Source: Terriglobus saanensis SP1PR4
GTDB lineage: Bacteria; Acidobacteriota; Terriglobia; Terriglobales; Acidobacteriaceae
Assembly (NCBI RefSeq): GCF_000179915.2
Contig: NC_014963.1
Span: 4,898,001-4,962,000 of the forward strand
Reading direction: 5' to 3'
DNA length: 64,000 bases
This document shows positions 8,081 through 60,968 of this stretch, one piece after another (the first letter of the stretch is position 1; every line of letters starts with the position of its first letter). The notes beneath the pieces are model-generated. The model did not search any database. It saw only the letters and a program-made list of their open reading frames with translations, and was not told the DNA's origin. The position numbers were made by a program, and so were the translations under genes.

Positions 8081-8145
8081 GTGCCCCATCTTCGCGCGTC
8101 TTTTGCGCGAAGGGTGGGGTCGCGCAGAGCGCACAAACCAGATCT
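8081..8145 (+). repeat. Composite repeat, module A copy 1
   Basis: The module starts GTGCCCCAT and contains a TTCGCGC...GCGCGAA hairpin. It then has GGGTGGGGTCGCGC, AGAGCGCACAAACC and AGATCT. Five other copies exist at 15969, 19758, 27860, 37329 and (reverse) 60905. It lies just after the GH35 stop. Confidence 0.85.
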
Positions 8146-8235
8146 GTCTGGGAAGAACAACAGATCTCTCCACTACGCGACGGTAAAGCCGTCGCTCCGG
8201 TCGAGATGACGGAGAACTCACCCACACCACACACC

Positions 8236-8354
8236 GTCATTTCGACCGAGCGCGGAGCGGAAGCGGAGAAATCTGCTTTTGTTATGCGCCAAAGGCGCAT
8301 CCGATCGCGCTCCGCGCGATAACAACAGATCTCTCCGTTTCACTACGGGATGAC
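8236..8354 (+). repeat. Composite repeat, module C copy 1 running into module D
   Basis: The module begins GTCATTTCGACCGAGCG and continues with GAGAAATCTGC. Two short hairpins follow (ATGCGCC/GGCGCAT and CGATCGCGC/GCGCGAT), and it closes with AACAGATCTCTCC and a CTACGGGATGACA module-D end. A second near-identical copy is at 26421. A partial inverted fragment precedes it at about 8171-8215. Confidence 0.8.
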
Positions 8355-8364
8355 AACATAGAAC

Positions 8365-8415
8365 CCGGGTGCCCCATGTCCTGCTTCTGGGACATGGGTT
8401 ATGCGCAAAGCGCAT
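8365..8415 (+). repeat. Composite repeat, module B copy 1
   Basis: The module reads GGGTGCCCCATGTCC, loop, GGGACATGGG, then TATGCGCAAAGCGCAT: two consecutive hairpins. Other copies are at 19841, 27946 (diverged) and reverse at 60840. It ends about 36 bases before rsfS, so the element lies in the rsfS leader or promoter region. Confidence 0.8.
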
Positions 8416-8451
8416 TTGCTCTATCCTTGAGAGTGACACTGAAGGAGCAAC

Positions 8452-9057
8452 ATGCCCACACTTGAAACCGATCAGCTCCTTGCCGCGGCCGTAGATGCCT
8501 GCGACAGCAAAAAAGCTGAAGACATCCGTATCCTCGCCCTCGACGTCTCGGAGAGCGCTCTCACCGACTACTTCCTCATCTGCAACGGCACCAACGACCG
8601 CCAGAACGTCGCCATCTCGGACGAGATCGAGTACCGCCTGAAACATGACTTCGGCGTCTACCCTAACTCCGTCGAAGGCCGCCGCCAGGGCGAGTGGGTC
8701 CTGATGGACTACGTCGACTTCGTCGTCCACATCTTCCTGCCCGAAACCCGCGCTCACTACGGCCTGGAACGCCTGAAGAAGTCCGCGACCCAACTCACAC
8801 TCGCCCAGCTTCAAACCGAGATCAAGGCCCGCATGGCCAACCTCGCCAAGTCGCGCGTGAAGACCCCGGCAAAGAAGGCTGCTCCCGCAAAAGCAGCACC
8901 GGCGAAGAAAGCTGCTCCGGCCAAGTCACCCGTCAAGAAAGCAGCCGCGAAGAAAGTCGCCGTCAAAGCAGTGGCAAAGAAAACATCGGTAAAGACAGTG
9001 ACAAAGAAAGCTCCAGCCAAGAAAGCCCCTGCGAAAAAGACTGCCGCAAAGAAATAG
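8452..9057 (+). CDS. rsfS: Ribosomal silencing factor RsfS with a lysine/alanine-rich C-terminal tail
   Basis: Residues 5-118 match RsfS (Iojap/DUF143): 'DIRILALDVSE', 'TDYFLICNGTNDRQ', 'EGRRQGEWVLMDYVDFVVHIF' and a YGLERL end. The protein binds uL14 (L14) of the large subunit and blocks subunit joining in slow growth. Ordinary RsfS is about 105-130 residues. Here about 68 extra residues (134-201) consist of AKKAAPAK-type repeats, roughly one third Lys, resembling histone H1 or bacterial AlgP/Hc1-like tails. Such a tail should bind RNA or DNA. GGAG at 8443-8446 supports the ATG at 8452. A bidirectional terminator follows. Confidence 0.9.
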   Translation: MPTLETDQLLAAAVDACDSKKAEDIRILALDVSESALTDYFLICNGTNDRQNVAISDEIEYRLKHDFGVYPNSVEGRRQGEWVLMDYVDFVVHIFLPETRAHYGLERLKKSATQLTLAQLQTEIKARMANLAKSRVKTPAKKAAPAKAAPAKKAAPAKSPVKKAAAKKVAVKAVAKKTSVKTVTKKAPAKKAPAKKTAAKK

Positions 9058-9075
9058 TTTTCAGGAGGCAAAGAA

Positions 9076-9103
9076 AAAAGGCTGCTCCTCGGAGCAGCCT
9101 TTT
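9076..9103. terminator. Bidirectional rho-independent terminator between rsfS and the TonB receptor
   Basis: A 13-bp stem (AAAAGGCTGCTCC / GGAGCAGCCTTTT) has a 2-base TC between its arms. There is a T-run on the plus side and an A-run (9074-9079), read as T on the minus strand. It serves the two convergent genes. Confidence 0.85.
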
Positions 9104-9121
9104 GATTGCGGCAAACAATGG

Positions 9122-12100
9122 TTAGAAGATGAACTTCGCCCAGAGACGGAAGTTCTGGCTCGTATTCTCTCGTGCATTTTGCTTGTTGAGGTAGTTGGAG
9201 GTTCCGACATCAATCAGATTCGTGTCCAGGATACTTACGTTGTTATGATTGCCGACGTTCTGACCCTCGGCGCGCAGGACGAACTGTGCGTGTTCGAAGT
9301 GACGGAATGACGCCGGAATGTCCTTCTCCGCAGCAAGGTTCCAGAAAATCTGGCCTGGATTTTCGAAGCTGTTCCGCCCCACCTCCCGGGTAATAAACTG
9401 CGAACCATTCGGAATGAGGAAGCGGGCCTGGTCTGCGGTAATGGGAGTCACGGCGCCCGTAGCGTTGTTTGCCGCAAGGTCGTAGTAAACCCCAGGGACT
9501 GCTGTCGGGTCGTCAACGTAGGCTCCATCGATACCAACGGAGGTGATGGGTGCTCTCGAATTTCCAACGATCGGCCGATCGTTGGAGGCATTCAGATCCC
9601 CACTTGTGTCAATACCCACGATCTGGAAGGAGCTATACGGACCAGACGCGAGTTGCGTCGTACCCGACACGATGAAGTGCCGCGTGAACGCCTCAAGAAG
9701 CAGGTCCGCACCGCGGTTGGCAGAATGAAAACCACTCGGAGCAAAGATGTATTCGAATGATGCAATATGACGGCGATCAAACGTGGAGTTGCTGTATTCC
9801 TGCGCCTGGCGCTGCAAGTTAGCGCCATAGGGCGTATTTGGATTGGAGAAAGTAGAGAAGATCTCCGAAGCATCGTCCAGGTTCTTCGAGAACGAGTACG
9901 AGGCGCGGAACGAGATGCCGTGCGTGAACGCGCGCGAAACTTCGACTTGTGCGCTGTTGTAGTTTGAGTCGCCGCCGTTATTCCGAACGGTAACGGCACC
10001 GCGTGCGGGATTGAGGCGAACACCGTTCGAAAACGGATTGAGCTGTTGGGTAACAAACAGCTTCTTGCCGTTGGCCCCAACATAGTTGACCGTGAGCTTG
10101 ATGGCGGCCGGAAGTTGACGCTCAAAACCAAGATTGTACTGATAGGTCATCGGATTGACCATATTGTTCGAGGTGCTCAGCACGGAAGACTGAGCCGTGA
10201 GAGCAGGCGTCAAGGTCGTCAGAAGGGTTGTGGCATTCGGCCCGAAACCGTTGGAGGTAGCTCCCGTGATGAGACCAGTGGGCGCAACGGGTGAAGACTG
10301 CGCGGAATTGACGATGATGTTGGTGAAGTCCACGTCGTAGAAGATGCCCAAACCAGCGTGGATCACCGTCTTGCCGTCGCTGAAAAACCCGAAGTGAGGA
10401 TTGTAGGCAAATCCAACGCGAGGCGCGAAGTTGTTTTTATCCGCCTTCACTGGAACCACGGTGTTAATGGCCTGGTAGGGATTTTTCACATCCACAGAGG
10501 GGAAGGTCAGGGAGTTCTCTGGATTCGTGTCGTAGTCATAGCGGACACCGACGTTGAGCGTGAACTCCGGCGTGAGCTTGATGTCGTCCTGGATGAAGCC
10601 AGCAATCTTCCAGAGGTGGGGATCGACGCGGGTAGGTCCAAAGGTGCGGGTGATGGTTCCGCCCGATCCAAGCTGGTTGCTGATGAAGTTATCGAACGAC
10701 GATGCACCAGCGCCCCCCGTGGCGTAGGTGATCTGACCCAAAGCATTCTGAGCGATTAGATCGGTCTCATGATCACGCGCAACGTCCGTGCCCATGCGGA
10801 TGGACTGCCGACCTTTGGTCCAGGCAACGGTATCTTGAAATTGATAGAGCTGCTGGATGCGGCCTTGAGGGATATTCTGGGAAACTCCCAACGTATTGAA
10901 TCCAGACCCTGCGATCGTGACATTGAAGATTTGAGCGGCAGGATTTGCAAGAGTTTCCGGAGTTCCGAAGAACTGCGAGCTTAGGCGTACCTCCGATGCC
11001 CTGAACTCATTCAGGAGGTTCGGGGTGAAAACATGAGTCCAAGTTCCTTGCGCCAGTTCCGCAGGTCCACCCTCCTGGGCATCAAATCCTGGGATGCCAG
11101 AAACATTGAGACCAAGATCAGGAGTGAAGGTGGAGCGATCGTGCAAATAACGATATGAGAATGTGTCGTTGGAACGCGGAATGAAATCGACTCGGAACTC
11201 CCACTGCGTGTCCGGCTCCTCCTGCGAGACTGGGGCGCGCTGGAAGAAGGCAAGGGGAATCGCGCAGGCCGTGCCACCGCAGTTCGCAGCACTGACGGCC
11301 AGGGTCTTGCTGCTGTCAGCAGCTTGAGCAAACGTCGTCAGATAGCTTCCGCCGTTTAAGAGACTCTTGAACAGCGCCACCTGCGACGCGGCCGTTGTCG
11401 AGCTTGCAGCGATCGTCGCTAACTGGTTGTAACCCGCCTGTGTCGGCAGAAGGATTTGGTCGGAGGGTGACTTTCCATAGAATCGTGTGAACTGGGTACC
11501 GCCGAAGGCGAAAAGCTTGTCTTTCCAAATCGGACCACCGGCTGTGAAGCCAAACTGATGCTCATCGAACCGCGCCTTGGGGTTAGGGGTTCCAGCCGGA
11601 ATGGGCTTCTGCTGGCGCGTGACGCCGTCGAGAGATTCAAGACCCGAACCGCTATAAAGCTCGAACAGGCTTCCGTGAAACTGATTCGTTCCGCTCTTTG
11701 TAATCAGGTTGACCACGGCGCCGCCCGAGCGTCCGTACTCGGCAGAAGCCGAGTTCAGAAGGGTCGTGACCGTCTGGTACATGTCCGGGATCTGAGGATT
11801 GAAAGATTGGCCGCCGATACCCACATCATTGATGTCCTGGCCGTCTAGCATAAAGTTATTGCTACGCGGACGGGCTCCATTCACCTGAATTTGTTCGTAG
11901 TTTCCAGCGGTACCATTCAGGTTGAGGTTGGGGTTGATCAGAACTACACCAGGCAACGTTGCGACCAACTCGAATGGGTTAAGGGAGAAGATCGGAACCT
12001 TGGATAGTTCCTGGGTGCCAACCGTTCCGGAAAGCTGTCCATTTTCTGTATTGATGGCGTTCGTCTCCGCCTCGACAGTCACGGTGTCATTCACCGAACC

Positions 12101-12424
12101 CACAGCGAGCTTCGGGTCGTAGGTCGTCACGACGGATGGAAGTACGCGAAGGTCATTGACCTCGGATGCAGTGAAGCCGGGCATCTCAACACGGATCTTG
12201 TAACGTCCTGGATTGATGGCGTCGACGCGATAGGCACCCTCGCCCGTCGTTGTCACCGTGCGCTCTTCGCCGGTGTCCTGGCTGACGATCTTGACACTCG
12301 CGTTGGGAACCGCCGCGCCTGAGTTGTCCCGCACCACGCCAGCAACAATGCCCTTACTGGTCTGACCGGAAACGTACGGTACAGCGGCGATCATCAACAG
12401 GAGAACAGACAGAATTTTTTTCAT
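9122..12424 (-). CDS. Oar-like TonB-dependent receptor with carboxypeptidase-regulatory domain
   Basis: The 1,100-residue outer-membrane protein has a signal peptide (MKKILSVLLLM...VSGQ). An N-terminal CarboxypepD_reg-like beta-sandwich follows at about 24-110, with 'GVVRDNSGAAVPNASV' and 'YKIRVEMPGF'. A plug domain has 'FMLDGQDINDVGIGG' and 'AEYGRSGGAVVNLITKSGTNQFHG', and a long beta-barrel ends in a terminal Phe (WAKFIF). This is the architecture greatly expanded in Acidobacteria. No SusD partner or inner-membrane transporter lies beside it, so the substrate, probably a peptide or oligosaccharide, stays unknown. The ATG at 12424 is preceded on its own strand by a GAAAGGATTGAGATC stretch with AAGGA as the ribosome site. 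Confidence 0.92.
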   Translation of the reverse strand: MKKILSVLLLMIAAVPYVSGQTSKGIVAGVVRDNSGAAVPNASVKIVSQDTGEERTVTTTGEGAYRVDAINPGRYKIRVEMPGFTASEVNDLRVLPSVVTTYDPKLAVGSVNDTVTVEAETNAINTENGQLSGTVGTQELSKVPIFSLNPFELVATLPGVVLINPNLNLNGTAGNYEQIQVNGARPRSNNFMLDGQDINDVGIGGQSFNPQIPDMYQTVTTLLNSASAEYGRSGGAVVNLITKSGTNQFHGSLFELYSGSGLESLDGVTRQQKPIPAGTPNPKARFDEHQFGFTAGGPIWKDKLFAFGGTQFTRFYGKSPSDQILLPTQAGYNQLATIAASSTTAASQVALFKSLLNGGSYLTTFAQAADSSKTLAVSAANCGGTACAIPLAFFQRAPVSQEEPDTQWEFRVDFIPRSNDTFSYRYLHDRSTFTPDLGLNVSGIPGFDAQEGGPAELAQGTWTHVFTPNLLNEFRASEVRLSSQFFGTPETLANPAAQIFNVTIAGSGFNTLGVSQNIPQGRIQQLYQFQDTVAWTKGRQSIRMGTDVARDHETDLIAQNALGQITYATGGAGASSFDNFISNQLGSGGTITRTFGPTRVDPHLWKIAGFIQDDIKLTPEFTLNVGVRYDYDTNPENSLTFPSVDVKNPYQAINTVVPVKADKNNFAPRVGFAYNPHFGFFSDGKTVIHAGLGIFYDVDFTNIIVNSAQSSPVAPTGLITGATSNGFGPNATTLLTTLTPALTAQSSVLSTSNNMVNPMTYQYNLGFERQLPAAIKLTVNYVGANGKKLFVTQQLNPFSNGVRLNPARGAVTVRNNGGDSNYNSAQVEVSRAFTHGISFRASYSFSKNLDDASEIFSTFSNPNTPYGANLQRQAQEYSNSTFDRRHIASFEYIFAPSGFHSANRGADLLLEAFTRHFIVSGTTQLASGPYSSFQIVGIDTSGDLNASNDRPIVGNSRAPITSVGIDGAYVDDPTAVPGVYYDLAANNATGAVTPITADQARFLIPNGSQFITREVGRNSFENPGQIFWNLAAEKDIPASFRHFEHAQFVLRAEGQNVGNHNNVSILDTNLIDVGTSNYLNKQNARENTSQNFRLWAKFIF

Positions 12425-12704
12425 TTGGATCTCAATCCTTTCAGGAGGACATTCGTCCGTTTAGAACAGGTTCAAGCGAACCCGGAGGAGGTGGCCCACG
12501 GACTGGAGTGTCGTAGCAGTATTTGCGTAGTTCACACTAATGCACTTCACATACCAACCCCGGCTTTCACATAAAAGCCCTATAAATAGGACTTTAGGCC
12601 CAGATGCCCCCTTGGGCTGGCGCAGAATCTACGATGATCCACATATGGATACCAAAATCTGTATATTTTGCCACAGATCTCCTCGCACCCGTACTCTCAT
12701 TCCT

Positions 12705-15968: not shown

Positions 15969-16033
15969 GTGCCCCATTCTTTCGCGCTCTTGGCGAAAGG
16001 GTGGGGTCGCGCAGAGCGCACAAACCTGATCCT
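15969..16033 (+). repeat. Composite repeat, module A copy 2
   Basis: GTGCCCCATTCTTTCGCGC, hairpin, GGGTGGGGTCGCGCAGAGC and GCACAAACCTGATCC follow the module A order. It lies upstream of the M3 peptidase start and supplies a false N-terminal extension to that frame. Confidence 0.85.
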
Positions 16034-16055
16034 GAAGGAAGCCCTCTCTTCTTTT

Positions 16056-16118
16056 GTCATCCCGCAGGGATCTGCTTCTCTCAAAAGCAGATCCCTGCAC
16101 TTCGTTACGGGATGACAA
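16056..16118 (+). repeat. Composite repeat, module D (GTCATCCC ... GGGATGAC) copy 1
   Basis: GTCATCCCGCAGGGATCTGC, then an AGCAGATCCCTGC inverted match, CTTCGTTACGGGATGAC. The ends are inverted repeats (GTCATCCC / GGGATGAC) enclosing a second dyad, so the whole 63 bases can fold into one long hairpin. Related tails are seen at 8320-8355, 19918-19952 and about 28040. Confidence 0.8.
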
Positions 16119-16204: not shown

Positions 16205-17407
16205 ATGAACCAGTCCCCAGTAGCTATGCCGAGTCCGATCGACCCAACATTTCAGGACAATCCTCATGCGATCTACGATCCCCTGCGGGCTACGGAACCG
16301 ATCTTTCACGACACGAAGTTGAACCGCGTCGTGTTGACCAGGGCCAAGGACGTCGGTGAAGTTCTAAATGACCGGGAGACGTTGGCCGATCCCAGGAAGT
16401 CGCTTCCCGATGCCTACGCCCGTCGTGTCTTTCGCGTCGATGAAAACTTCAGGCCGAACATGTTGCGCATGGACGATCCCGACCACAAGCGTGTTCGCTC
16501 CGCTGTCGTAAAGGTCTTCAACCAGGTCTCCGTGGACGCGATGAAGGGCCGCATTGAGCAGTTAGCGAACGCCATCCTGAATCCGCTCACAGACCGCTCG
16601 TCCTTCGATTTGATCGAAGAGTTCGCAAGACCCTTTCCCGTCACCGTCATCGCCGAACTCCTGGGCGTAGGCAATGACTCGCTTGCGGATTTCATGCAAT
16701 GGTCGGTCGCTCTGTCGCAGGTCTTTAATCCCATGGCTACACCGCAGGAGTTGGTAGACCTGGCCTGGGGACAACAGCACCTCAAGGATTATTTCAGGCG
16801 AGTCGTGGACGAGCGCCGGGCCCGGCGCGGCACCGACTTTATCAGTTCGCTGATCACGGCGGAGGAAAAAGGACAACTCACAGAGTGGGAGGTCTTGAGC
16901 ACCTGCGAGCTTCTTCTCTTTGCGGGCAACGTGACGACGACCGACCTAATCGGGAACGGTCTCCTTGCACTCCTGCAGCACCCCGAGCAGATGGAAAAGT
17001 TACGTGCCAATTCCGCGCTCCTGCCCGGGGCCGTCGAGGAGATGCTGCGCTACGATTCGCCCATCACGGTCACCAGTCGCGTGAGCGCGGAGACGACCCG
17101 TATCGACGGCTGCCCCTTCCACGCAGGCCAGACGATCTCGTCCATGCTGGATGCGGCCAATCACGATCCCGCCCTGCATGAGAACCCGCATGCCTTCGAC
17201 ATCGAGCGCGAGAATAAGCGTCACTATTCCTTTGGCGGCGGCGCTCATTTTTGCGTCGGCGCTCCTCTGGCGCGAGCCGAAGCGGAGATCGCGTTCTCTC
17301 TGCTCCTGAAACGGTTCCCGAAGCTTGCACTGGATCCGAGTCGCCCGCCGGTGCGGAAGATCGCAGCGACCTTCCGCGGTTTCAGTTCGCTCTGGGTCAC
17401 GGTCTGA
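16205..17407 (+). CDS. Cytochrome P450, first of a tandem pair
   Basis: The 400-residue soluble bacterial P450 has an I-helix LLLFAGNVTTTDLIG for oxygen activation and an EEMLRYDSP segment. That segment lacks a clear ExxR Arg three positions after Glu except as E-M-L-R. It also has the heme loop FGGGAHFCVG with Cys350 as ligand. No membrane anchor is present. ATG at 16205 has GAGGAG six bases upstream and is preferred to the one at 16190. The protein is about 70% identical by eye to the next gene, 21 bases downstream. No ferredoxin or reductase gene is adjacent, so electrons must come from elsewhere. Substrate is unknown. Confidence 0.92.
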   Translation: MNQSPVAMPSPIDPTFQDNPHAIYDPLRATEPIFHDTKLNRVVLTRAKDVGEVLNDRETLADPRKSLPDAYARRVFRVDENFRPNMLRMDDPDHKRVRSAVVKVFNQVSVDAMKGRIEQLANAILNPLTDRSSFDLIEEFARPFPVTVIAELLGVGNDSLADFMQWSVALSQVFNPMATPQELVDLAWGQQHLKDYFRRVVDERRARRGTDFISSLITAEEKGQLTEWEVLSTCELLLFAGNVTTTDLIGNGLLALLQHPEQMEKLRANSALLPGAVEEMLRYDSPITVTSRVSAETTRIDGCPFHAGQTISSMLDAANHDPALHENPHAFDIERENKRHYSFGGGAHFCVGAPLARAEAEIAFSLLLKRFPKLALDPSRPPVRKIAATFRGFSSLWVTV

Positions 17408-17428: not shown

Positions 17429-18634
17429 ATGAACGAACAAACCGAAGTACCCGTAATCAATCCGATCGACCCGAAGTTTAACGAGAATCCTCATGCGACG
17501 TATGACCCTCTGCGGTCCACCGATCCGGTCTACCGAGACACGGTATTGAATCGAATCCTGGTGACCAGGGCCAAAGAAGTCGGTGAGATTTTACAGGACA
17601 GGCAGATACCATGCGACCCCAGGAAAACTCTTCCGGACGCTTACGCGCGTCGCACCTTCTGGGTGGATGAAAACTACAAGCCCAGCTTGTTGCGCATGGA
17701 CGATCCAGATCACAAACGCGTCCGCTCCGCAGTCGCAAAGGTCTTCAATCAGACCGTCGTCGACGCGATGCGAGGCCGCATCGAAGAGATCACAACCGTC
17801 ATTCTGGATACGCTCGTGGGACGCACTTCCTTCGAGCTGATCGAAGAGTTCGCAAGACCTTTGCCCATCACCGTGATTGCCGAGTTCCTGGGAGTAGATG
17901 ACGTCTATCTCGCGGAGTTCATGCAATGGTCGATTGCCATGCTGCAGAGCTTTAATCCTGCCCCCACACCCCAGCAAAAGGCCGACATGATGCGGGGAAG
18001 AGATTGGGGCATTGACTATTTCAAAAAGGTTGTAGACGCGCGCCGCACCACGCGAGGCAATGACTTTATTAGCTCTCTCATCACAGCGGAGGAACAGGGC
18101 CAACTCACGGAATGGGAGATCCTGAGTACCTGTGACCTTCTTCTGCTTGCGGGCAATGTGACGACGACCGATCTGATAGGGAACGGCGTGGTGGCCCTGC
18201 TCCAGCATCCGGAACAGTTGCAAAAGTTACGTGCGAACCCTGCGCTGTTACCCCACGCCATCGAGGAGATACTCCGGTACGATTCGCCCATCACGAGCGT
18301 TAACCGTGTGACTACAGACACGATCCGCATCGATGGCTGTCCTTTCCATGCGGGACAAAGCATTTCTTTGATGCTGGATGCGGCCAATCATGATCCCGCC
18401 TTGCACGAGGACCCTCATACATTCGACATAGAGCGCACAAATCAGCGCCACTACTCCTTTGGCGGCGGAGCCCATTTTTGCCTGGGAGCTCCCTTGGCGC
18501 GGGCAGAGGCAGAGATCGCATTCAAATTACTGCTGGAGCGCTTCCCGAAGCTTGCACTCGATCCCGCCCGCCCCCCAAAGCGCAAGCTCGCTCCAAGTTT
18601 CCATGGCTTTGAGTCACTCTGGGTCACTGTCTAG
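17429..18634 (+). CDS. Cytochrome P450, second of a tandem pair
   Basis: The 401-residue paralogue of the preceding P450 has the same landmarks: LLLLAGNVTTTDLIG I-helix, EEILRYDSP (ExxR) and FGGGAHFCLG with Cys351 as heme ligand. GAGGAG lies 4-9 bases before the ATG. Differences cluster in the regions that line the substrate pocket (for example 90-110 and 165-200), so the pair may act on different or successive substrates. The two genes are evidently a recent duplication in one operon. Confidence 0.92.
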   Translation: MNEQTEVPVINPIDPKFNENPHATYDPLRSTDPVYRDTVLNRILVTRAKEVGEILQDRQIPCDPRKTLPDAYARRTFWVDENYKPSLLRMDDPDHKRVRSAVAKVFNQTVVDAMRGRIEEITTVILDTLVGRTSFELIEEFARPLPITVIAEFLGVDDVYLAEFMQWSIAMLQSFNPAPTPQQKADMMRGRDWGIDYFKKVVDARRTTRGNDFISSLITAEEQGQLTEWEILSTCDLLLLAGNVTTTDLIGNGVVALLQHPEQLQKLRANPALLPHAIEEILRYDSPITSVNRVTTDTIRIDGCPFHAGQSISLMLDAANHDPALHEDPHTFDIERTNQRHYSFGGGAHFCLGAPLARAEAEIAFKLLLERFPKLALDPARPPKRKLAPSFHGFESLWVTV

Positions 18635-19757: not shown

Positions 19758-19822
19758 GTGCCCCATTCTTTCGCGGCTTCTTGCGAAAGGGTGGGGTCGC
19801 GCGGAGCGCACAAACCAGATCC
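19758..19822 (+). repeat. Composite repeat, module A copy 3
   Basis: GTGCCCCATTCTTTCGCGG, hairpin with TTGCGAAAGGG, GTGGGGTCGCGCGGAGC, GCACAAACCAGATCC: nearly identical to copies 2 and 4. Confidence 0.85.
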
Positions 19823-19840
19823 TTCCCAAAACCAAAACAC

Positions 19841-19889
19841 GGGTGCCCCATGTCCCGCTTTTGGGACATGGGTTATGCGCAAAGCGCAT
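19841..19889 (+). repeat. Composite repeat, module B copy 2
   Basis: GGGTGCCCCATGTCCCGC, loop, GGGACATGGG, TTATGCGCAAAGCGCAT. It is followed at 19890-19916 by CGTTCGCTCGAAGAGC, a short arm also seen after module B copy 3. Confidence 0.85.
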
Positions 19890-19917: not shown

Positions 19918-19952
19918 CAGCAGATCCCTTCACTGCGCTACGGGATGACAAA
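19918..19952 (+). repeat. Composite repeat, partial module D
   Basis: AGCAGATCCCTTCACTGCGC TACGGGATGACAAAC (split here by a space) matches the right half of the module D copy at 16056. Confidence 0.7.
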
Positions 19953-20140
19953 CAAAACAATCCCGTGCCGCGCAAAGCGCACAAACCAGATCCCTCAAGA
20001 AAACCCTAAACCGGAAACCCAAAACATCGCCCGCTTTGCGACGTGTGGGATGCGCAAAGCTGACCCGACACCCGGTATCGCTATCATGAGGCAGAGTCTT
20101 CGCCGCGCGGATTCTCTGCCATCAGGGGAACCCAAACACA

Positions 20141-25511: not shown

Positions 25512-26408
25512 ATGTACGCCATCATGGGAATTACAGGAAGGGTCGGCGGCGCCGTCGCCGATCATCTGCTCGCACACGGCCAGAAGGTCCGCGCCATCGT
25601 CCGCAACCCCGACAAAGCAGCACCATGGAAGACGCGCGGAGCGGAGATCGCCATAGCCGATTACGACGATGCCACCGCTCTCACCGCGGCCTTCACCGGA
25701 GTCAAAGGCGTCTTCATCATGGTGCCCCCGAATTTCGCACCTTCGCCGGGCCTGCCGGAGCTGCGCAAAACGCTCGCCGCCTTGCATGAAGCTCTCGCAA
25801 AGGCTCTGCCGAAGAAGGCCGTGTACCTCTCTTCCATCGGTGCGGAGCAGAAGAGTGGCCTCGGCCTCATCACCGCATCGCACCTGCTCGAAGAGACCCT
25901 GGGCGATCTCCCCATCGCGCACGCCTTTCTGCGCGCGGGCTGGTTCATGGAAAACTCCGCGGGCGACGTCGCCTCGGCCAGCGAGGGCAAAATTTATTTC
26001 CATCTGCAACCCCTCGATCGCAAAATCCCTATCGTCGCTACGCAGGATATCGGTCGCGTCGGAGCGGATACGCTGCTGCAAGACTGGACGGGGACACGGC
26101 GCATCGAAGTGACCGGCCCGAAAAACTATTCGCCGCTCGACATCGCAGCAGCCTTTGCCTCAGCGCTCCAACATCCCGTCGAAGCCATCGCCGTCCCGCG
26201 CGATCAGTGGACAGCCTCCTTCCTTGCGCAAGGCATGCCCGAAGGACGCACAGAGCCACGCGCCGAGATGGTCGACGGCTTCAACTCCGGCTGGATCCAC
26301 TTCGGCAACCCGGGCACGGAAAAGTTCACCGGAACAACAACGCTCACCACCATGATCTCAAAGCTTGTTACAGACACACCACCACCGGCATTTCGACCGA
26401 ACGCGTAG
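25512..26408 (+). CDS. NmrA-like NAD(P)-binding oxidoreductase
   Basis: The 298-residue Rossmann protein has the NmrA/atypical SDR start 'MYAIMGITGRVGGAVADHLL', with the Gly-x-x-Gly-x-x-Gly loop at 6-12. 'VRAIVRNPDKAAPWKTRGAEIAIADYDD' follows, where the Arg after the second strand favours NADPH. 'VYLSSIGAEQKSGLG' stands where the SDR Ser is found. There is no YxxxK pair, as usual for NmrA-like proteins such as QorB. AGGAGA lies 7 bases before the ATG. It is regulated by the adjacent TetR through the operators described above; quinone or aldehyde reduction is the probable role. Confidence 0.85.
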   Translation: MYAIMGITGRVGGAVADHLLAHGQKVRAIVRNPDKAAPWKTRGAEIAIADYDDATALTAAFTGVKGVFIMVPPNFAPSPGLPELRKTLAALHEALAKALPKKAVYLSSIGAEQKSGLGLITASHLLEETLGDLPIAHAFLRAGWFMENSAGDVASASEGKIYFHLQPLDRKIPIVATQDIGRVGADTLLQDWTGTRRIEVTGPKNYSPLDIAAAFASALQHPVEAIAVPRDQWTASFLAQGMPEGRTEPRAEMVDGFNSGWIHFGNPGTEKFTGTTTLTTMISKLVTDTPPPAFRPNA

Positions 26409-26420
26409 CGAGAGCGAGAC

Positions 26421-26555
26421 GTCATTTCGACCGAACGCGCAGCGGGAGCGGAGAAATCTGCTTTGTTATGCGCCGAAGGCGTATCCGATCGCGCTCCGCG
26501 CGATAACAACAGATCTCTCCGCTACGCGACGATAAAGCCGTAGCTCCGGTCGAGA
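26421..26555 (+). repeat. Composite repeat, module C copy 2
   Basis: GTCATTTCGACCGAACGCG, GAGAAATCTGC, TTATGCGCCGAAGGCGTA, CGATCGCGCTCCGCGCGAT, AACAGATCTCTCCGCTACG follow copy 1 closely. A half-copy (CATTTCGACCGAACGCG) starts at about 26390, inside the end of the NmrA-like gene, and the copy ends next to the convergent hydrolase stop. Confidence 0.8.
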
Positions 26556-26563
26556 GTACGGAA

Positions 26564-27859: not shown

Positions 27860-27925
27860 GTGCCCCATTCTTTTGCGGCTTCATCGCAAAAGGGTGGGGT
27901 CGCGCAGAGCGCACAAACCAGATCT
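27860..27925 (+). repeat. Composite repeat, module A copy 4
   Basis: GTGCCCCATTCTTTTGCGG, ATCGCAAAAGGG, GTGGGGTCGCGCAGAGC, GCACAAACCAGATCT. Compensating changes keep the TTTTGCG/CGCAAAA stem, which argues that the hairpin is maintained. Confidence 0.85.
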
Positions 27926-27945
27926 CCAAGGAAAGCCCAAAATAC

Positions 27946-28000
27946 GGGTGCCCCATACATCGCGCTCTTTGCGATGTGTGGGCATATGCGTGAAGCGCAT
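27946..28000 (+). repeat. Composite repeat, module B copy 3 (diverged)
   Basis: GGGTGCCCCATACATCGCGC, loop, GCGATGTGTGGG, ATATGCGTGAAGCGCAT. The stem sequence differs from copies 1 and 2 (ACATCGC/GCGATGT in place of GTCCC/GGGAC), but pairing is preserved. Confidence 0.75.
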
Positions 28001-37328: not shown

Positions 37329-37392
37329 GTGCCCCATTCTTTCGCAGCCTTATCGCGAAAGGGTGGGGTCGCGCGGAGCGCACAAACAGATT
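37329..37392 (+). repeat. Composite repeat, module A copy 5
   Basis: GTGCCCCATTCTTTCGCAGC, TATCGCGAAAGGG, GTGGGGTCGCGCGGAGC, GCACAAACAGATTT. Read as protein it gives the first residues (MGSRGAHKQ) of the over-extended condensation-like frame. Confidence 0.85.
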
Positions 37393-37491
37393 TTTCAGGA
37401 AGCGCGAAGAACTAACCAGGGGAATAAAGAAGCTACAGGTGTGTTTCCACTTACAACACTTCCTCGATTGGAAGTTGGAAGGGGAAGTCCA

Positions 37492-51098: not shown

Positions 51099-51211
51099 AC
51101 ACGGCAACCGCAGACTCCATGCCCATTAAGTGATGCCTTAAATTCGGATCACGCAGAATCAGAAAAACACAAAATCCAGTAAGTGCCGAATCCGGCCCCG
51201 TAACAAACTCA

Positions 51212-51372
51212 TTACAAAATCCCTTCACGACTAGCCTGATACACCGTCTGCACCTTCGGCGAGAAGCCAAAGCTCCGCAGCTTCGATCCATCGATGCGAC
51301 TCATCCACGGGATCAATCAACGGCTCGGCGGACGCTTCAATCGGCGACCCAACAAGACTGGCCATCTCGTAG
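51212..51372 (-). pseudogene. Broken copy of the 3' end of the epimerase gene at 54660
   Basis: On the minus strand this segment encodes the last 53 residues of the intact epimerase (YEMASLVGSPIEASAEPLID ..., ending in ASREGIL and the same stop TAA). One extra C in GATCCC (intact: GATCC) shifts the frame after about 22 codons. Homology ends sharply near 51372 at the codons for YEM. The upstream flank (51064-51135) also matches the flank of the intact gene, so a block was copied and then decayed. Confidence 0.8.
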
Positions 51373-54574: not shown

Positions 54575-54659
54575 CTCTTATGTTCACACTCAAGGTCAAA
54601 GCCTGACTCAGAAGGACACACCATGCACGGCGTGCGAGGCCGAGTCCGCAACAACCTCG

Positions 54660-55475
54660 TTACAGAATCCCTTCCCGACTAGCCTGATAAACCGTCGGCA
54701 CCTTCGGCGAGAAGCCAAAACTCCGAAGCTTCGATCCATCCATGCGCCCCATCCACGGATCGACCAACGGCTCCGCCGACGCCTCAATAGGCGAACCGAC
54801 AAGACGGGCCATCTCGTAAAGGGAAGCGGGCGCATCATCGCAGATATTCACGACCTGCCCGTCCATCGCACCGGTCAATGCCAGTTCCACGGCACCCGCA
54901 ACATCCCGCTGGTGAATCAGGCTGAAGGTCTTCGCCGGATGCCACTTGAACCGCGCGACAATCGGCGGGACCGAAGCCAGATGTCCGTCCCCATCGCCAT
55001 AGACAAAGCCGAGACGAAGGATGCTCCAGTTCAGACCGCTCTCGCGCAGCTCCTTCTCCGCGGCAATCTTGCTTGCGGGATACGCGAGCGTGGGGTGTGT
55101 CTCATCCTCTTCGAGACCCGGATGGGTTGCGTTCGCGTCGTAGACCAGACCGGTGCTTGCCATAATGAAGCGAGCCTGCGGAGCGTGCGCCTTCACTGCG
55201 GCGATCAGTTTCTTCGTGCCATCGAGATTCGCCCGCCAGATCTCGTCGTCATTCTGAGTCCGGAAGACCGCCGCAAGATGAACGATCGCCGAAACGCCCT
55301 CCACGGCCTGCTGCAACGTAGCCGCATCCAGCAGATCGCCTTCCACGCGCGTAGCTCCAGCGGGAACTTCCTTGCCCGGCCGCACCAGCGCGCGGCAATC
55401 CACACCGGCATCCACGAACTGCCGCAGAAGGCGCGAGCCCACCAATCCCGTTCCACCCGTAATTAAAATAGTCAT
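54660..55475 (-). CDS. NAD(P)-dependent epimerase/dehydratase-like (extended SDR)
   Basis: The 271-residue protein has GGTGLVGSRLL (7-17) for cofactor binding, 'VEGDLLDAATLQQAVEGVSAIVHLAA', 'ASTGLVYDA', and Y-x3-K in 'LAYPASKIAAEKEL' with 'ILRLGFVYGDGDGH'. The C-terminal half is short, as in the flavonol-reductase/cinnamoyl-CoA-reductase-like group. ATG overlaps the stop of the marR gene by 4 bases. A decayed copy of the last 53 codons lies 3.4 kb away. Confidence 0.88.
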   Translation of the reverse strand: MTILITGGTGLVGSRLLRQFVDAGVDCRALVRPGKEVPAGATRVEGDLLDAATLQQAVEGVSAIVHLAAVFRTQNDDEIWRANLDGTKKLIAAVKAHAPQARFIMASTGLVYDANATHPGLEEDETHPTLAYPASKIAAEKELRESGLNWSILRLGFVYGDGDGHLASVPPIVARFKWHPAKTFSLIHQRDVAGAVELALTGAMDGQVVNICDDAPASLYEMARLVGSPIEASAEPLVDPWMGRMDGSKLRSFGFSPKVPTVYQASREGIL

Positions 55476-55951: not shown

Positions 55952-55993
55952 TAGCTACCTTACAAATTGATAGCTACCGAACGATCTGTCAAG
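55952..55993. promoter_or_regulatory. Direct repeats and -35 element in front of marR
   Basis: TAGCTACC occurs at 55952-55959 and 55971-55978, 19 bases apart. On the minus strand a perfect TTGACA (55988-55993) precedes them at promoter distance, so protein bound to the repeats would block the marR promoter. A matching -10 hexamer is not convincing. TAGCTA also occurs at 56047 next to the divergent start. Confidence 0.5.
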
Positions 55994-56051
55994 TCTCCCA
56001 ACAATAAGTGGGATTCGCGACTGCTCAAAATACGCTCTAATACAGTTAGCT

Positions 56052-56786: not shown

Positions 56787-56787
56787 C

Positions 56788-57378
56788 GTGAAGGTCTCCT
56801 CCCTCCTGCAGCCTTATCTCAATGCTCCCTTGCCAGATGGCGTGGAAGAGAAGCTGGCGCAGTATCTGGAACTGATTCTGAAGTGGAATGCCCGCACCAA
56901 CCTGACAGCGGTGCGCGATGCCGAGGGGATCGTCCGACGTCACTTCGGGGAGAGCCTCTTTCTCGGCGGACTGCTTCCAGAGTTCTCGACTCTGCTTGAT
57001 TTCGGTTCGGGAGCAGGCTTTCCCGGAATCCCCGTCCAGCTCATCAGGCCCCTAAGCAAAGTGACTTTAGCGGAGTCCCAGGGTAAGAAGGCCAGCTTTC
57101 TCCGAGAGGCTGTGCGCTCTTTGGCGATTCCCAGTGACGTCTGGGCGGCAAGAGTGGAAACCATGCCGGAGTCGAAGACCTTCGATGTCGTTGCGATGCG
57201 GGCCGTGGACGGAATGGCGGCTGCAATCGCGGTGGCGGTAAGCAAAGTACGTCCTGGGGGGCAGCTTGCCCTAATGCTGGGACGGGAGAAGATGGATCTG
57301 CCCGAAGACTTCAACTGGGCCGATCCTGTCGCGGTTCCCGGAGACGGCGGTCTCATTCTCCTGGGTTCTCGAAACTAG
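56788..57378 (+). CDS. rsmG: 16S rRNA m7G527 methyltransferase RsmG
   Basis: The protein from GTG 56788 is 196 residues: 'LAQYLELILKWNARTNLTAVRDAEGIVRRHFGESL', SAM motif 'LLDFGSGAGFPGIPVQLIRP', 'LAESQGKKASFLREA', 'VVAMRAVDGM'. The order and length fit RsmG (GidB). The frame is open upstream to 56680 inside the amidotransferase, but GTG 56788 right after its stop matches the family start. It is followed by parS sites and parA-parB, the arrangement usual near the replication origin. Confidence 0.93.
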   Translation: MKVSSLLQPYLNAPLPDGVEEKLAQYLELILKWNARTNLTAVRDAEGIVRRHFGESLFLGGLLPEFSTLLDFGSGAGFPGIPVQLIRPLSKVTLAESQGKKASFLREAVRSLAIPSDVWAARVETMPESKTFDVVAMRAVDGMAAAIAVAVSKVRPGGQLALMLGREKMDLPEDFNWADPVAVPGDGGLILLGSRN

Positions 57379-57381
57379 GAA

Positions 57382-57587
57382 TGTTCCACGTGGAACATTT
57401 GCCAAGGTCTGAAGCTTAATTGTTCCACGTGGAACAATTAAGTAAGAGCGCTCGGCGTGGACAACGAATTCGATAAATGACCTCGTCCGAATTTCGGACT
57501 CGCCGGGCGGGGATGAGGTCCTTGGAATGTTCCACGTGGAACATCCGCCGGAGCCGAAATTGAATCCAAATTGTTCCACGTGGAACA
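57382..57587. promoter_or_regulatory. Cluster of four parS sites
   Basis: The 16-bp palindrome TGTTCCACGTGGAACA occurs at 57382-57397, 57421-57436, 57528-57543 and 57572-57587, all identical. It differs from the Bacillus parS consensus (TGTTTCACGTGAAACA) by one symmetric base pair. ParB loads on these as CTP clamps for chromosome segregation. Confidence 0.93.
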
Positions 57588-57696
57588 ATTTCGGCCCACC
57601 TCGGGGCTTTCCACAGCTAAATGGACTTGTACACAGAGGATCAACCGTAAGCGCATGGCGGCTCGTGCGGGACTCCCGTAGTCTGAGAAGAACTTC

Positions 57697-58539
57697 ATGA
57701 GCAAGATACTCGCAGTAGTCAATCAGAAAGGCGGCGTGGGAAAGACCACGACCGCGATCAATCTTGCGGCTGCGCTGGCGATGGAGGGGCTTCCGACCCT
57801 CGTCGTCGACTGCGATCCCCAGGCCAACACCACCGGCGGTCTCGGTCTGGGACGCGACGATGCCCGTATGTCGACCTACGACGTGCTCGTGGGCAACGCC
57901 ACCATCGCCGAAGCCACTGTTTCCACGGGGATTGAACTGCTCAAGGCGATTCCTTCGAGCAAAAACCTGATCGGCGCGAATTTCGAGCTGGTTAATGGTG
58001 AACGGAGAGAGTTCCGCTTGCGGGAGGCCTTGGCCGTCGTGAAGGAACAGTATCCCTTTATCGTGCTGGACTGCCCCCCGGCGCTAGATCTCCTCACGCT
58101 GAACAGTCTTGTTGCGGCGGACGGCCTGCTGGTTCCGATGCAGGCGGAGTACTTCGCGCTGGAGGGCATTAGCGAGTTGATGAGCACGCTGGATAAGGTC
58201 GTGAGCGCTTTCAATCCCACACTTGTGCTCGAAGGCGTCGTCCTCACGATGTATGACCCGCGCACCAGCCTTTCCCAGCAGGTTTCGGAGAATCTCAAGA
58301 AGTTCTTCGGAGATAAGCTCCTGCAGACGACGATTCCGCGGAACATCCGGCTCGCCGAAGCTCCCTCCCATGGGCTTTCTGTGATGGAATACGATCCGAA
58401 ATCCCGTGGAGCGGAAGCCTACCAGGAACTCGCGCGGGAGCTCCTGAAGCGCAATAAAGTAGTAAGTCCACGCGAGAAAGAGCGCAAAGCCTCTGCCGGG
58501 AGACCCAAAGAGATCCGTTTCTGGCCGTACAACAAGTAG
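57697..58539 (+). CDS. parA: Chromosome-partitioning ATPase ParA (Soj)
   Basis: The 280-residue protein has the deviant Walker A KGGVGKTT (11-18), 'LVVDCDPQANTTGGLG', 'YPFIVLDCPPALDLLTLNSLVAADGLLVPMQAEYFALEG' and 'LAEAPSHGLSVMEYDPKSRGAEAYQELARELL'. All are typical of chromosomal Soj. There is no N-terminal HTH, so it is the chromosomal and not the plasmid ParA type. It works with ParB on the six parS sites around the gene to move the origin region. Confidence 0.95.
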   Translation: MSKILAVVNQKGGVGKTTTAINLAAALAMEGLPTLVVDCDPQANTTGGLGLGRDDARMSTYDVLVGNATIAEATVSTGIELLKAIPSSKNLIGANFELVNGERREFRLREALAVVKEQYPFIVLDCPPALDLLTLNSLVAADGLLVPMQAEYFALEGISELMSTLDKVVSAFNPTLVLEGVVLTMYDPRTSLSQQVSENLKKFFGDKLLQTTIPRNIRLAEAPSHGLSVMEYDPKSRGAEAYQELARELLKRNKVVSPREKERKASAGRPKEIRFWPYNK

Positions 58540-58550
58540 AAATTCCAGAA

Positions 58551-58589
58551 TGTTCCACGTGGAACACTTAAATTGTTCCACGTGGAACA
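58551..58589. promoter_or_regulatory. Two parS sites between parA and parB
   Basis: TGTTCCACGTGGAACA at 58551-58566 and 58574-58589, identical to the four sites upstream of parA. Confidence 0.93.
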
Positions 58590-58619
58590 TTCTTCGAGCA
58601 CGAGATTAAGGATGAACCG

Positions 58620-59528
58620 ATGAGTGCAGCAGCCGTAGACAAACGCAGGGCACTGGGCAAGGGACTGGAGTCTCTTCTGCCTTCCAAGCCGACGCCGCCT
58701 CCCGCAGTCTTACCGACACTGCAAGCGGCGGAAGATACCGGGAAACCGAAGGAGCTACGCGTCGACCAGATCGTACCCAGCCGCTTTCAGACCCGCATGC
58801 GTTTCGATGAGGCGGAACTGAAGGAGCTGGCTCAATCGATTGCCGCTACGGGTGTGGTGCAGCCGGTCGTCGTCCGTCGCATGACGGATGGCAGATATGA
58901 GCTGATTGCCGGAGAGCGACGTTGGCGCGCCTCGAAGATGGCAGGCAAAGAGACGATTCCGGCGGTCGTTCGCCAGGCCAGCGATGAGCAGGCGATGGAG
59001 ATGACCATCGTCGAGAACCTGCAGCGCTCTGATCTCAACCCGATGGAACAGGCGCGGGCCTTTGATCGGCTGGGGCGCGAGTTCGCGCTGACACAGGAGC
59101 AGATAGCGGTGCGTACGGGAAAAGAACGCGCTTCGGTGGCGAACTTCCTGCGTTTGCTGCGACTTCCGCCCGAGGTGCAGGACAAGGTCGAGGCGGGTGA
59201 ACTTTCGTTTGGGCATGCAAAGACGCTTCTGGCCCTCGAAAACGAGGCCCAGATGGCTGCGGCGGCGAAGAAGGTGCTTGCTCTTTCCATGAGCGTTCGT
59301 CAGACAGAGACCTACATCAAAGGCCTGTTGGACCCGGAGCGCAAGCTGGGCAAGGTTGAACCCCCGCCCGAGGTGATCGATCCGAATGTGCGCGAAGCGC
59401 AGGTGGCGCTGCAAAGGGCGCTTGGCCTGAAGGTGCGCATTGAAGACAAGAATGGAAGGGGCCGGGTCGTCATTGAATACTCCCGGCTGACAGATTTCGA
59501 CACCCTTTTCGAGATGTTGACGAAGTAG
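58620..59528 (+). CDS. parB: Chromosome-partitioning protein ParB
   Basis: The 302-residue protein has an N-terminal ParA-interacting 'RRALGKGLESLLP'. The CTP-binding/ParB N domain has 'VDQIVPSRFQTRMRFDEAELKELAQSIAATGVVQPVVV', GERRWRA and 'ENLQRSDLNPMEQA'. A HTH ('LTQEQIAVRTGKERASVANFLRLL') recognises parS, and the C-terminal dimer region follows. It spreads on DNA as a CTP-gated clamp. parA, parS and parB are complete here. Confidence 0.95.
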   Translation: MSAAAVDKRRALGKGLESLLPSKPTPPPAVLPTLQAAEDTGKPKELRVDQIVPSRFQTRMRFDEAELKELAQSIAATGVVQPVVVRRMTDGRYELIAGERRWRASKMAGKETIPAVVRQASDEQAMEMTIVENLQRSDLNPMEQARAFDRLGREFALTQEQIAVRTGKERASVANFLRLLRLPPEVQDKVEAGELSFGHAKTLLALENEAQMAAAAKKVLALSMSVRQTETYIKGLLDPERKLGKVEPPPEVIDPNVREAQVALQRALGLKVRIEDKNGRGRVVIEYSRLTDFDTLFEMLTK

Positions 59529-59557
59529 GTTCACGTACTCCGGAGAGGAGCCCGGTT

Positions 59558-60283
59558 TTGATCGCTGCAACAGAGTTTGAATATCGCTATCGCTACATGC
59601 TGCATGGCCTGATCTATGCGATCGGCTTTTCCGCGCCGTGGGATGCGACGGCCTTCCAGGTGGGCAATCACACGTTCTGGCTGAAGGCCGCCGCCTGGTT
59701 TTCAGAACATCTCGGTATGGGATTTCTTTCCGCGACGAACCTGGTGCTTGGGCTGGCGATCCTGTTTGCCGTCGCGGGAGCTTTGCTGAGATGGTGGGCC
59801 GCGGCCTATCTGGGTGCGTCGACGACACAGCGCGGCAGCATGGTAGCAGGGCGCGTGGTGGCGGACGGACCGTATCGCTATGTGCGCAATCCGCTCTATC
59901 TTGGCACTGTTTTGAACACGATGGCCCTTGTGGTCCTGATGCGACCCGCAGGCGCGGGACTCACCATGGTTTTGATCACGGTCTTTCAACTGCGCCTGAT
60001 CGCCCGCGAAGAACCCTTCCTGACGCGCGAGATCGGTCCTGCCTATACGGAATACTGCCGCGCTGTGCCGAGGATTATTCCGCGGTTGCGGTCCAGCGTG
60101 CCTCACGGAGGCGTTCGGCCGACCTGGGGACAGGGATTGACGAGCGAGGTATATGTCGTAGGTACCGCTCTGTCGTTCGCAGCGTTGGGGTGGCGGTATG
60201 ACGCCAAGCTGGTGGTGCAGGGCATCCTGGTGAGTGTGGGGCTGGCGCTGGTGGTGCGGGCGTTCATTCCGAACCGGGGATAA
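59558..60283 (+). CDS. Isoprenylcysteine carboxyl methyltransferase-like membrane protein (ICMT/PEMT superfamily)
   Basis: The 241-residue protein has four to six helices and the C-terminal signature 'GPYRYVRNPLYLGTVLNTMAL' followed by 'REEPFLTREIGPAYTEYCRAVPRIIP', the SAM-binding part of the ICMT/PEMT family. Bacterial members methylate lipids or small molecules in the membrane. It starts with TTG (59558) after a strong GGAGAGGAG site. A MOSC gene follows after 4 bases, so parB may lead a longer transcript. Confidence 0.85.
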   Translation: MIAATEFEYRYRYMLHGLIYAIGFSAPWDATAFQVGNHTFWLKAAAWFSEHLGMGFLSATNLVLGLAILFAVAGALLRWWAAAYLGASTTQRGSMVAGRVVADGPYRYVRNPLYLGTVLNTMALVVLMRPAGAGLTMVLITVFQLRLIAREEPFLTREIGPAYTEYCRAVPRIIPRLRSSVPHGGVRPTWGQGLTSEVYVVGTALSFAALGWRYDAKLVVQGILVSVGLALVVRAFIPNRG

Positions 60284-60287
60284 AGGG

Positions 60288-60821
60288 ATGTTGGTCGAAG
60301 CGGTCAGCCTGAGTGCGCGGCACGGTTTCTGCAAGGAACCGCAGATCTTTGTGCGGCTCCTTGCAGGGGTGGGCGTGGAGGGCGACGCGCACGCGGGCAA
60401 AACGGTGCAGCATCTCCACGACAAGCGCAAGGACCCGACCCAGCTAAACCGGAAACAGGTGCATCTGCTGGAGGCCGAGTTTCTAGAAGAGCTGGCGGCC
60501 AAGGGCTTCCGCCTGCGACCGGGCGAGTTTGGGGAAAACATCCTGACGCGCGGGCTCGCGCTCGCGGAGCTGCCGGAGGGAACGGAGCTTTGCCTTGGAG
60601 AGCAGGCTGTTGTTCAACTGACCGGTCTTCGCAATCCTTGTGTGCAGATCGACCGCTTTCAGAGTGGGCTGCTGGCAGAGACGATTGAGCAGTTGAACTC
60701 CGGAGAGCGGCGTTTCAAGGCTGGGGTGATGGGTGTTGTGTTGCTGGGTGGGGATGTTGCTTCCGGCGACGCGATCCGTGTGAAACTGCCGCTGACTCCG
60801 AAGGCGATGGTTCGGATTTAG
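60288..60821 (+). CDS. MOSC-domain protein
   Basis: The 177-residue protein from ATG 60288 has 'GVGVEGDAHAGKT', 'LNRKQVHLLEAEFLEEL', 'LRPGEFGENILTRGLALAELPEGTELCLGEQAVVQLTGLRNPCVQIDRF' and 'GVMGVVLLGGDVASGD', the MOSC pattern with Cys within NPC. MOSC domains bind molybdenum cofactor or reductively handle N-hydroxylated compounds (YiiM type). No moco gene is near. The start has AAGGG directly before it and lies 4 bases after the preceding stop. Confidence 0.9.
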   Translation: MLVEAVSLSARHGFCKEPQIFVRLLAGVGVEGDAHAGKTVQHLHDKRKDPTQLNRKQVHLLEAEFLEELAAKGFRLRPGEFGENILTRGLALAELPEGTELCLGEQAVVQLTGLRNPCVQIDRFQSGLLAETIEQLNSGERRFKAGVMGVVLLGGDVASGDAIRVKLPLTPKAMVRI

Positions 60822-60839
60822 AGTTTCGACTTGTACTTG

Positions 60840-60879
60840 AACCCATGTCCCAGAAGCGGGACATGGGGCACCCGGGTTC
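60840..60879 (-). repeat. Composite repeat, module B copy 4 (reverse)
   Basis: Read on the minus strand: GAACCCGGGTGCCCCATGTC, CCGCTTCTGGGACATGGGTT. It matches copies 1 and 2. Confidence 0.85.
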
Positions 60880-60904
60880 TGGGATGACAAAGGGGCTTCC
60901 TGAG

Positions 60905-60968
60905 GGATTCGGTTTGTGCGCTCTGCGCGACCCCACCCTTTCGCAAAGAACGCGAAAGAATGGGGCAC
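60905..60968 (-). repeat. Composite repeat, module A copy 6 (reverse)
   Basis: Read on the minus strand: GTGCCCCATTCTTTCGCG, TTCTTTGCGAAAGGG, TGGGGTCGCGCAGAGC, GCACAAACCGAATC. The pair A-B is kept in the same relative order as elsewhere but inverted as a unit. Confidence 0.85.

Follow-up and report, generated by a model that had tools for sequence, protein, structure and literature searches.

The stretch of DNA analysed here (the window) comprises 64,000 nucleotides, positions 4898001-4962000, of the single-contig, 5,095,226-bp genome of Terriglobus saanensis SP1PR4. Between its genes lie short hairpin units, named modules A to D, which the first-pass annotation had described as a dispersed, modular and non-coding family; all the modules that it listed (six of A, four of B, two of C and several of D) were located at its positions. 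Modules A and B have a common head, GTGCCCC, and a common foot, differ in their interchangeable inner stems, and form one family of repetitive extragenic palindromes (REPs). The modular build recognised by the annotation stands, but its separation of A from B does not. The two modules very probably are the REP elements of a Terriglobia-type system of REP-associated tyrosine transposases (RAYTs), and the genome encodes a transposase of the matching kind.

The first group of modules begins about 10 nt past the stop codon of a GH35 gene (6148-8070). Module A copy 1 (8081-8155, plus strand; fold z −4.91) consists of the GTGCCCC head, a 14-bp hairpin, a small GCGC hairpin and a tail. It is followed by an inverted D module of the long-stem variant (8157-8211, minus), a CGTCATTTCGACC...GAGAAATCTGC variant of D (8235-8277, plus), module C with two small GC-rich palindromes (8278-8324, plus), a further inverted D (8325-8354, minus), and module B copy 1 (8367-8415, plus; z −3.90), which has a GTCCY stem and an ATGCGC-AAA-GCGCAT hairpin. 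Here and below, D modules were delimited by repeat comparison. Module A copy 2 (15969-16044, plus; left junction ..AATACCACTCC directly followed by GTGCCCC) precedes a pair of D modules lying face to face (16057-16117). Near 19.8 kb, A copy 3 (19758-19830, plus) is joined by B copy 2 with a GTCCC stem (19841-19889, plus; z −5.37), an inverted D (19920-19950, minus) and, recognised by eye, a decayed A tail with B-like hairpin remnants (19969-20060, plus).

The site at 26.4 kb holds two tandem D modules (26386-26461, plus), C copy 2 (26462-26508, plus; repeat comparison) and an inverted long-stem D (26509-26560, minus); over a stretch that includes the D ends (8278-8347 and 26462-26531), the two C copies are 91% identical. 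Module A copy 4 (27860-27930, plus; z −3.98) carries a compensating C-G to T-A stem change and stands before B copy 3 with an ACATCGC stem (27946-28000, plus; z −5.11). Copy 5, identified by the stem and fold analyses, stands alone (37329-37398, plus). On the minus strand lie B copy 4 (60842-60873; z −4.75) and A copy 6 (60890-60968), whose head is at 60968; in the five plus-strand A copies the head is at the first coordinate.

An A unit opens with YYY and GTGCCCCAT; an inner stem of variable sequence and its complementary arm follow, then GGGTGGGG and a small GCGC-NNN-GCGC hairpin, and the unit closes with the tail ACAAACC.GAT..T.AGGAA. The GTGCCC head is present in 91 of 98 A cores genome-wide. 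Module B comprises GGGTGCCCCA, a variable stem, its complement and TGGG, often with a small hairpin such as ATGCGC-NNN-GCGCAT. When folded as single-stranded DNA, all six A copies of the window give z scores of −2.2 to −4.9 and all four B copies −3.9 to −5.4. In copy 1 the A tail also folds into a weak third hairpin (CCAGA..TCTGG), which by eye is unsupported in most copies and was discarded.

Covariation was counted directly on stem cells. In a set of 53 A copies, 356 of 371 cells are paired, and 34 cells are altered on both sides yet still paired, against a mean of 5.0 and a maximum of 16 when the 3' bases are shuffled. Window copy 4 belongs to the copies with such paired changes, as had been claimed from the window alone. 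Because the copies share ancestry, these counts do not represent independent events. For the 31 distinct B hairpins (from 61 matches), the mean uninterrupted stem is 10.7 bp; exchanging the 3' arms among them lowers the mean to 7.5 bp, with a maximum of 8.9 in 1000 shuffles. The earlier suggestion of selection on RNA or DNA structure holds in so far as the stems are conserved. This conservation is best explained by RAYT recognition of single-stranded DNA hairpins; a role of the stems in RNA is possible, and is not needed.

Each pattern was compared with a control, namely the same pattern reversed and counted in the same genome. The A core GGGTGGGGTCGCGC occurs 98 times in T. saanensis, the B pattern 61 times and the D pattern 136 times, each against zero control matches; this rules out chance or artefact and bears out the dispersed nature of the family. 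The pattern GGGTGCCCC N12-40 TGGG exceeds its control in all 37 genomes of the same family (2 against 1 in the weakest case), with a maximum of 265 in genome G008. Among 24 genomes outside the family, a clear excess is found only in G038 (30 against 1) and G055 (14 against 1). The A stem is present in six of these 61 genomes, all of one genus, with 109 copies in T. saanensis and between 4 and 13 in each of the other five. The D pattern was matched in 33 of the 61, in several of them as a single copy. A search of the plasmid collection with module A copy 1 gave no match, and spread by plasmids was set aside on this ground. Three IMG/VR contigs (L333, L334 and L335) bear one A hairpin head each, perhaps representing prophage ends or host DNA.

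The first-pass annotation had reported that the window has no transposase or RAYT gene. This agrees with the genome search, but it does not extend to the genome as a whole, which has two Y1_Tnp genes, both outside the window. The two RAYTs each sit between inverted copies of one palindrome: RAYT1 (L001) is flanked by inverted A hairpins, and RAYT2 (L002) by identical inverted 35-nt B-type hairpins, GGGTGCCCCATGTCCGG... The RAYT2 protein has 161 aa, matches NF047646 with 92.7 bits (cut-off 80), and contains Y1_Tnp alone in a Pfam scan. It possesses the HUH motif (EHVH) and catalytic tyrosine of a RAYT, the latter motif reading YLHRNP; residues H61, H63 and Y116 are invariant in all 11 proteins aligned in A1. 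Among solved Y1 transposases, E. coli TnpAREP (4er8) is the best match to a profile of the RAYT clade (E 4.8e-18).

Matches to NF047646 occur in 49 of the 61 genomes of the class. Flanks were analysed at 65 RAYT loci, namely L001, L002, 23 from the NF047646 search and 40 fetched by place, with six loci truncated at contig ends and a duplicate L002 entry left out. Loci were labelled by GTGCCCC on the expected strand or by a palindrome with a CTTYAG loop, in either flank and within about 480 nt of the match. The head is found at 28 loci (two of which also have the CTTYAG type), the CTTYAG type only at 26, and neither at 11. A tree of 62 RAYT proteins, each of at least 130 aa, has a bootstrap that is not fully settled. 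In this tree, all 24 head-only rows fall into one clade of 25 (support 98/87) and all 25 CTTYAG-only rows lie outside it, a count made without the two rows with both types and the 11 with neither; a single change of state suffices to account for the flank types. The head occurs in both flanks in 14 of the 24 head-only rows and in one flank in 10. A second large class of RAYT flanks consists of GGAAGGGCACGGCTTYAGCCGTGCC-like palindromes and belongs to a different set of RAYTs (L035, L036, L043-L047, L053, L058 and L060).

A second collection, genome_contigs, gave a similar result for the best 80 of 561 loci, all titled Acidobacteriota or genera or classes of this phylum; at least three of the 80 are apparently common to the first set, so the two sets overlap. 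The head is found on the expected strand in 74 of these 80 loci (159 matches) and in both flanks in 48; in 69 the flanks contain an inverted repeat with a score of 14 or more.

These flanks bear on the idea that the elements spread without a RAYT, by another transposase, gene conversion or the copying of composites, and flank RAYT genes as a by-product of insertion nearby. Such a course would be consistent with the A-flanked RAYT of T. saanensis being broken, and with module D being nearly devoid of RAYT flanks (one of 145 loci, and none on both sides). It could also draw on a composite: a unit CCGGGG(T/C)CCCCG(A/G)CGAACGG..GTTCG(C/T)TGG(G/A)GTGG is nested in A at five places (L008, L012, L298, L310 and L317), entering in all five between ..GAAA and CCGGGG, and these five nestings suggest that composites get copied. 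The RAYT flanks, however, are inverted, paired and gene-hugging, their head type tracks the RAYT phylogeny of 62 proteins, and the head recurs throughout the second collection, so that spread without a RAYT appears highly improbable. A variant of the unit nested in A is found at L022.

The position of module A relative to genes, a check proposed with the first-pass annotation, is markedly non-random. Genes were called by a simple codon-usage script and no standard gene finder; 92 of the 98 A cores have a called gene on both sides, and the place of the head was estimated for the seven of 98 that lack GTGCCC. None of the 92 lies inside a called gene. In 75 the upstream gene is on the same strand, with A at a median of 11 nt past the stop codon, and 53 of the 92 lie no more than 20 nt after a same-strand stop, against a mean of 10.4 and a maximum of 21 in 2000 runs in which A units were placed randomly in the same intergenic gaps. 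In tandem gaps, 25 of 34 copies point the same way as the genes; in convergent gaps, 45 of 50 have their head-side gene as the closer neighbour. Divergent gaps hold eight copies.

These placements, together with the compensating stem changes, are what would be expected if the hairpins were mainly RNA elements selected at mRNA 3' ends, as terminators, exonuclease barriers or translation brakes, with their spread incidental. The text of PMC12306157 reports ribosome stalling by E. coli REPs that lie no more than 15 nt from a stop codon, and by analogy the position of A after stops may affect translation or decay. Yet no intrinsic terminator (hairpin with a T run) was found at 7900-8600, the sole stretch scanned, and no Rfam family matches the window at the gathering threshold. 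Moreover, the composites after the same genes differ between two related genomes, and the GTGCCCC head also marks RAYT flanks across many genomes. A primarily RNA-based role is therefore considered unlikely.

On the scale of the chromosome, A and B crowd towards the origin, with 45/21/15/11/6 A copies and 35/14/9/2/1 B copies by fifths of origin distance; D on the right arm gives 23/18/13/6/4 rows per 0.51 Mb in a hand count. The origin was taken as dnaA at the contig start, recognised by eye from its translation, and these gradients are given without control for gene content. Module A has no strand bias with respect to the replication arms (43 of 98, p 0.27).

The nearest relative found (genome G009) has 73-91% identity to T. 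saanensis in longer aligned stretches, and its assembly is 70% complete in 480 contigs. Six of the seven window sites were compared, the 37.3-kb site being left out. At all five A sites compared, the relative lacks an intact A: the 8.08-kb copy is represented by a half-deleted relic, and the other four sites are without A. At 15.97 kb A is absent, and the left end of the T. saanensis copy lies exactly between ..CACTCC and GTGCCCC. A and B are both absent at 19.8 kb, and also at 60.9 kb after the same gene, past which the gene order differs; at 27.9 kb the relative has a B-type hairpin in place of A and B. At 26.4 kb neither genome has A, and D is partly common to both, one of the two tandem modules being found in the relative.

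Copy number, hairpin structure, flanking of RAYTs, the link between RAYT clade and head, the position after stop codons and the differences from the relative are all supported directly; from patterns of this kind we infer mobility of the A and B hairpins, cleavage by a RAYT, a direction of movement and an effect on mRNA. In the proposed mechanism, a RAYT, as a HUH/single-tyrosine enzyme, would recognise a single-stranded hairpin with a 5' GTGCCCC head, its own gene being bracketed by an inverted pair of such hairpins, and would cut and rejoin single-stranded DNA, thereby spreading the elements. Entry would take place at pyrimidine-rich sites, leaving YYY before GTGCCCC. At −1 relative to the A head, 88 of 91 copies have C or T, as do 80 of 91 at −2 and 82 of 91 at −3, with a weaker preference farther out; this fits the possibility, raised by analogy with known RAYTs, that the GTG head guides cutting at pyrimidine sites. 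Head and foot, which would face the RAYT, would stay fixed, and the inner stem would drift through paired changes, giving rise to subfamilies (A and the several B stems). Copies would survive mainly right after stop codons, where they may shield the 3' ends of mRNAs or reduce translation of the gene before them.

This scheme is complicated by a number of observations that weigh against it. The 8.08-kb site looks like a partial loss in the relative rather than a gain in T. saanensis, and at none of the six sites compared are both junctions cleanly aligned, the right-hand ones failing at the sites other than 8.08 kb, so no perfect empty site was found. The stop-codon placement could arise from function or tolerance rather than targeting. 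The hairpin foot carries GTGC in both A and B, and not the 5' GT[AG]G tetranucleotide of canonical REPs. Two of the 62 tree rows have both flank types, and among the best 80 of 561 loci of the second collection the head also occurs on the wrong strand (38 matches in 29 loci), a chance background. The stem adjoining the RAYTs of genomes G002, G008 and G012 is found only in these and in G015, with 26 copies in total. G015 holds eight of these copies, and the two RAYT loci examined there (of three matches) are flanked otherwise; G002 and G008 have only two and three copies beyond the flanks. In T. saanensis, RAYT1 is broken, being split over two frames, and the RAYT2 flank stem occurs only beside RAYT2 itself (two of 61 B copies). 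For these reasons no intact RAYT of this genome has an exact match to the abundant A and B stems, which may be older populations; since RAYT1 is defective and the intact RAYT2 has its own stem, present-day mobility in T. saanensis is uncertain.

Among known systems, A and B are closest in kind to the REP/RAYT systems (REPtrons; GTAG REPs with TnpAREP). Like these, they are short, extragenic, multicopy palindromes with RAYTs between inverted copies, RAYT-specific subfamilies, placement by gene 3' ends, clusters and dimers. They differ in that the head is GTGC(CCC), with GTGG or CTGC in a few relatives, and not GTAG, and that the stem is freely replaced and often followed 3' by a second small GCGC hairpin. 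The A/B tag is neither GTAG nor CGTC; in the other respects tested the elements are REP/RAYT, and because the tag is GTGC and not GTRG they are classed as a variant. According to the text of PMC3733652, other REP families also lie close to gene 3' ends, and REP dimers and clusters have already been described; the first-pass view of the repeats as REP/ERIC-like is hence upheld as to the REP kind, but their modular build is only partly distinct. As set out in passages of PMC8266576, REP hairpins in single-stranded form are cut by E. coli and other RAYTs, and the selection of the cut site can be guided by the tetranucleotide lying 5' of the hairpin.

Acidobacteria also contain TIRYT genes within TIRtrons (Di Nocera 2013, PMC3733652), RAYT-like genes that are described there as lying between inverted repeats, as is the case here; one of these repeats (ORF1552, Koribacter versatilis) is reported as a dispersed family. 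Compared by description only, the motif GGGGWSAS that TIRtrons share is not found in A or B by eye; in T. saanensis, the sole genome inspected for it, it is absent from A (GGGGTCGC; head complement GGGGCAC). TIRYT proteins belong to subclass 2.1 and carry a C-terminal HTH; in the 161-aa RAYT2, Pfam detects Y1_Tnp and nothing else. The acidobacterial TIRtrons may nonetheless include relatives of the A/B family. Offshoots of subclass 2.2 (Quentin 2018, PMC6006769) are, as described there, similar in that their RAYT measures about 165 aa and has a motif of the Y-I-H-x-NP type, and their GTGG foot is similar to the GTGG heads found in a few relatives; by the same description they differ in having DHLH rather than EHVH as the HUH motif, and the head here is mostly GTGC. 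Neither GGGTGCCCC in the main text of PMC3733652 nor GTGCCCC in that of PMC12306157 was found, figures and supplements lying outside the search, and the 15 open-licence papers that contain GGGTGCCCCA are, by title, on other subjects.

Module D forms a second palindrome, of CGTC-like type, and no RAYT dedicated to it emerged from the 145 RAYT loci. It shares several traits with the CGTC REPs as described in the text of PMC3733652: the CGTC/TGTC tag, a stem starting with AT, paired inverted copies and the lack of a dedicated transposase. The base before GTCAT is T in 54 and C in 9 of 65 D copies, the GTC itself being imposed by the search pattern, and the outer triplets are exactly complementary in 53 of the 65, with four kinds. 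Unlike the CGTC REPs of that paper, D has the tail CTG and not CCA (by eye in the window copies; genome counts are uninformative, as the pattern imposes CTG), a longer and variable interior, and a weak single-unit fold, the two stretches tested lacking any independent fold (z −0.43 and +0.24). Thus D resembles a REP of the CGTC type by its tag, with a differing tail.

Module D is also associated with A. Within 120 nt of the A tail, 32 of the 98 A cores have an inverted D and four a same-strand D, and in 25 of the 98 an inverted D lies 23-38 nt behind A. For A-D composites as a single mobile unit, the regular spacing speaks in favour and the differing linkers speak against. A tentative reading, held to be possible rather than probable, is that a separate Terriglobia RAYT lineage reads the fixed GTGCCCC head and foot, with the stem exchangeable, and that D rides behind as an inverted partner at near-fixed spacing. 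If true, this would answer how orphan CGTC REPs move, and the fixed head and foot with an exchangeable stem would constitute a natural series of matched transposase-hairpin pairs. In either event an orphan CGTC-like repeat is placed here beside a transposase-linked one.

Overall, the family looks like a form of REP/RAYT system, so far little described, that belongs to soil Acidobacteria; its head is constant, its stems can be swapped, and it strongly favours positions just past the stop codon. RAYT experiments described in the text of PMC8266576 concern GTAG-type REPs; the GTGCCCC clade offers dozens of natural combinations of transposase, head and stem with which the rules of hairpin choice by HUH enzymes become testable. 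The tightly defined location of the hairpins behind stop codons may influence the expression of many genes in these soil bacteria.

Three further features of the window concern other sequences. Six TGTTCCACGTGGAACA palindromes lie at 57371-58592, between and beside the genes at 56788-59528, and resemble chromosomal parS sites. The genes at 16205-17407 and 17429-18634 are tandem paralogues with a DNA identity of about 75%. Finally, the stretch at 51187-51371 is repeated at 54635-54818 with 85-86% identity.

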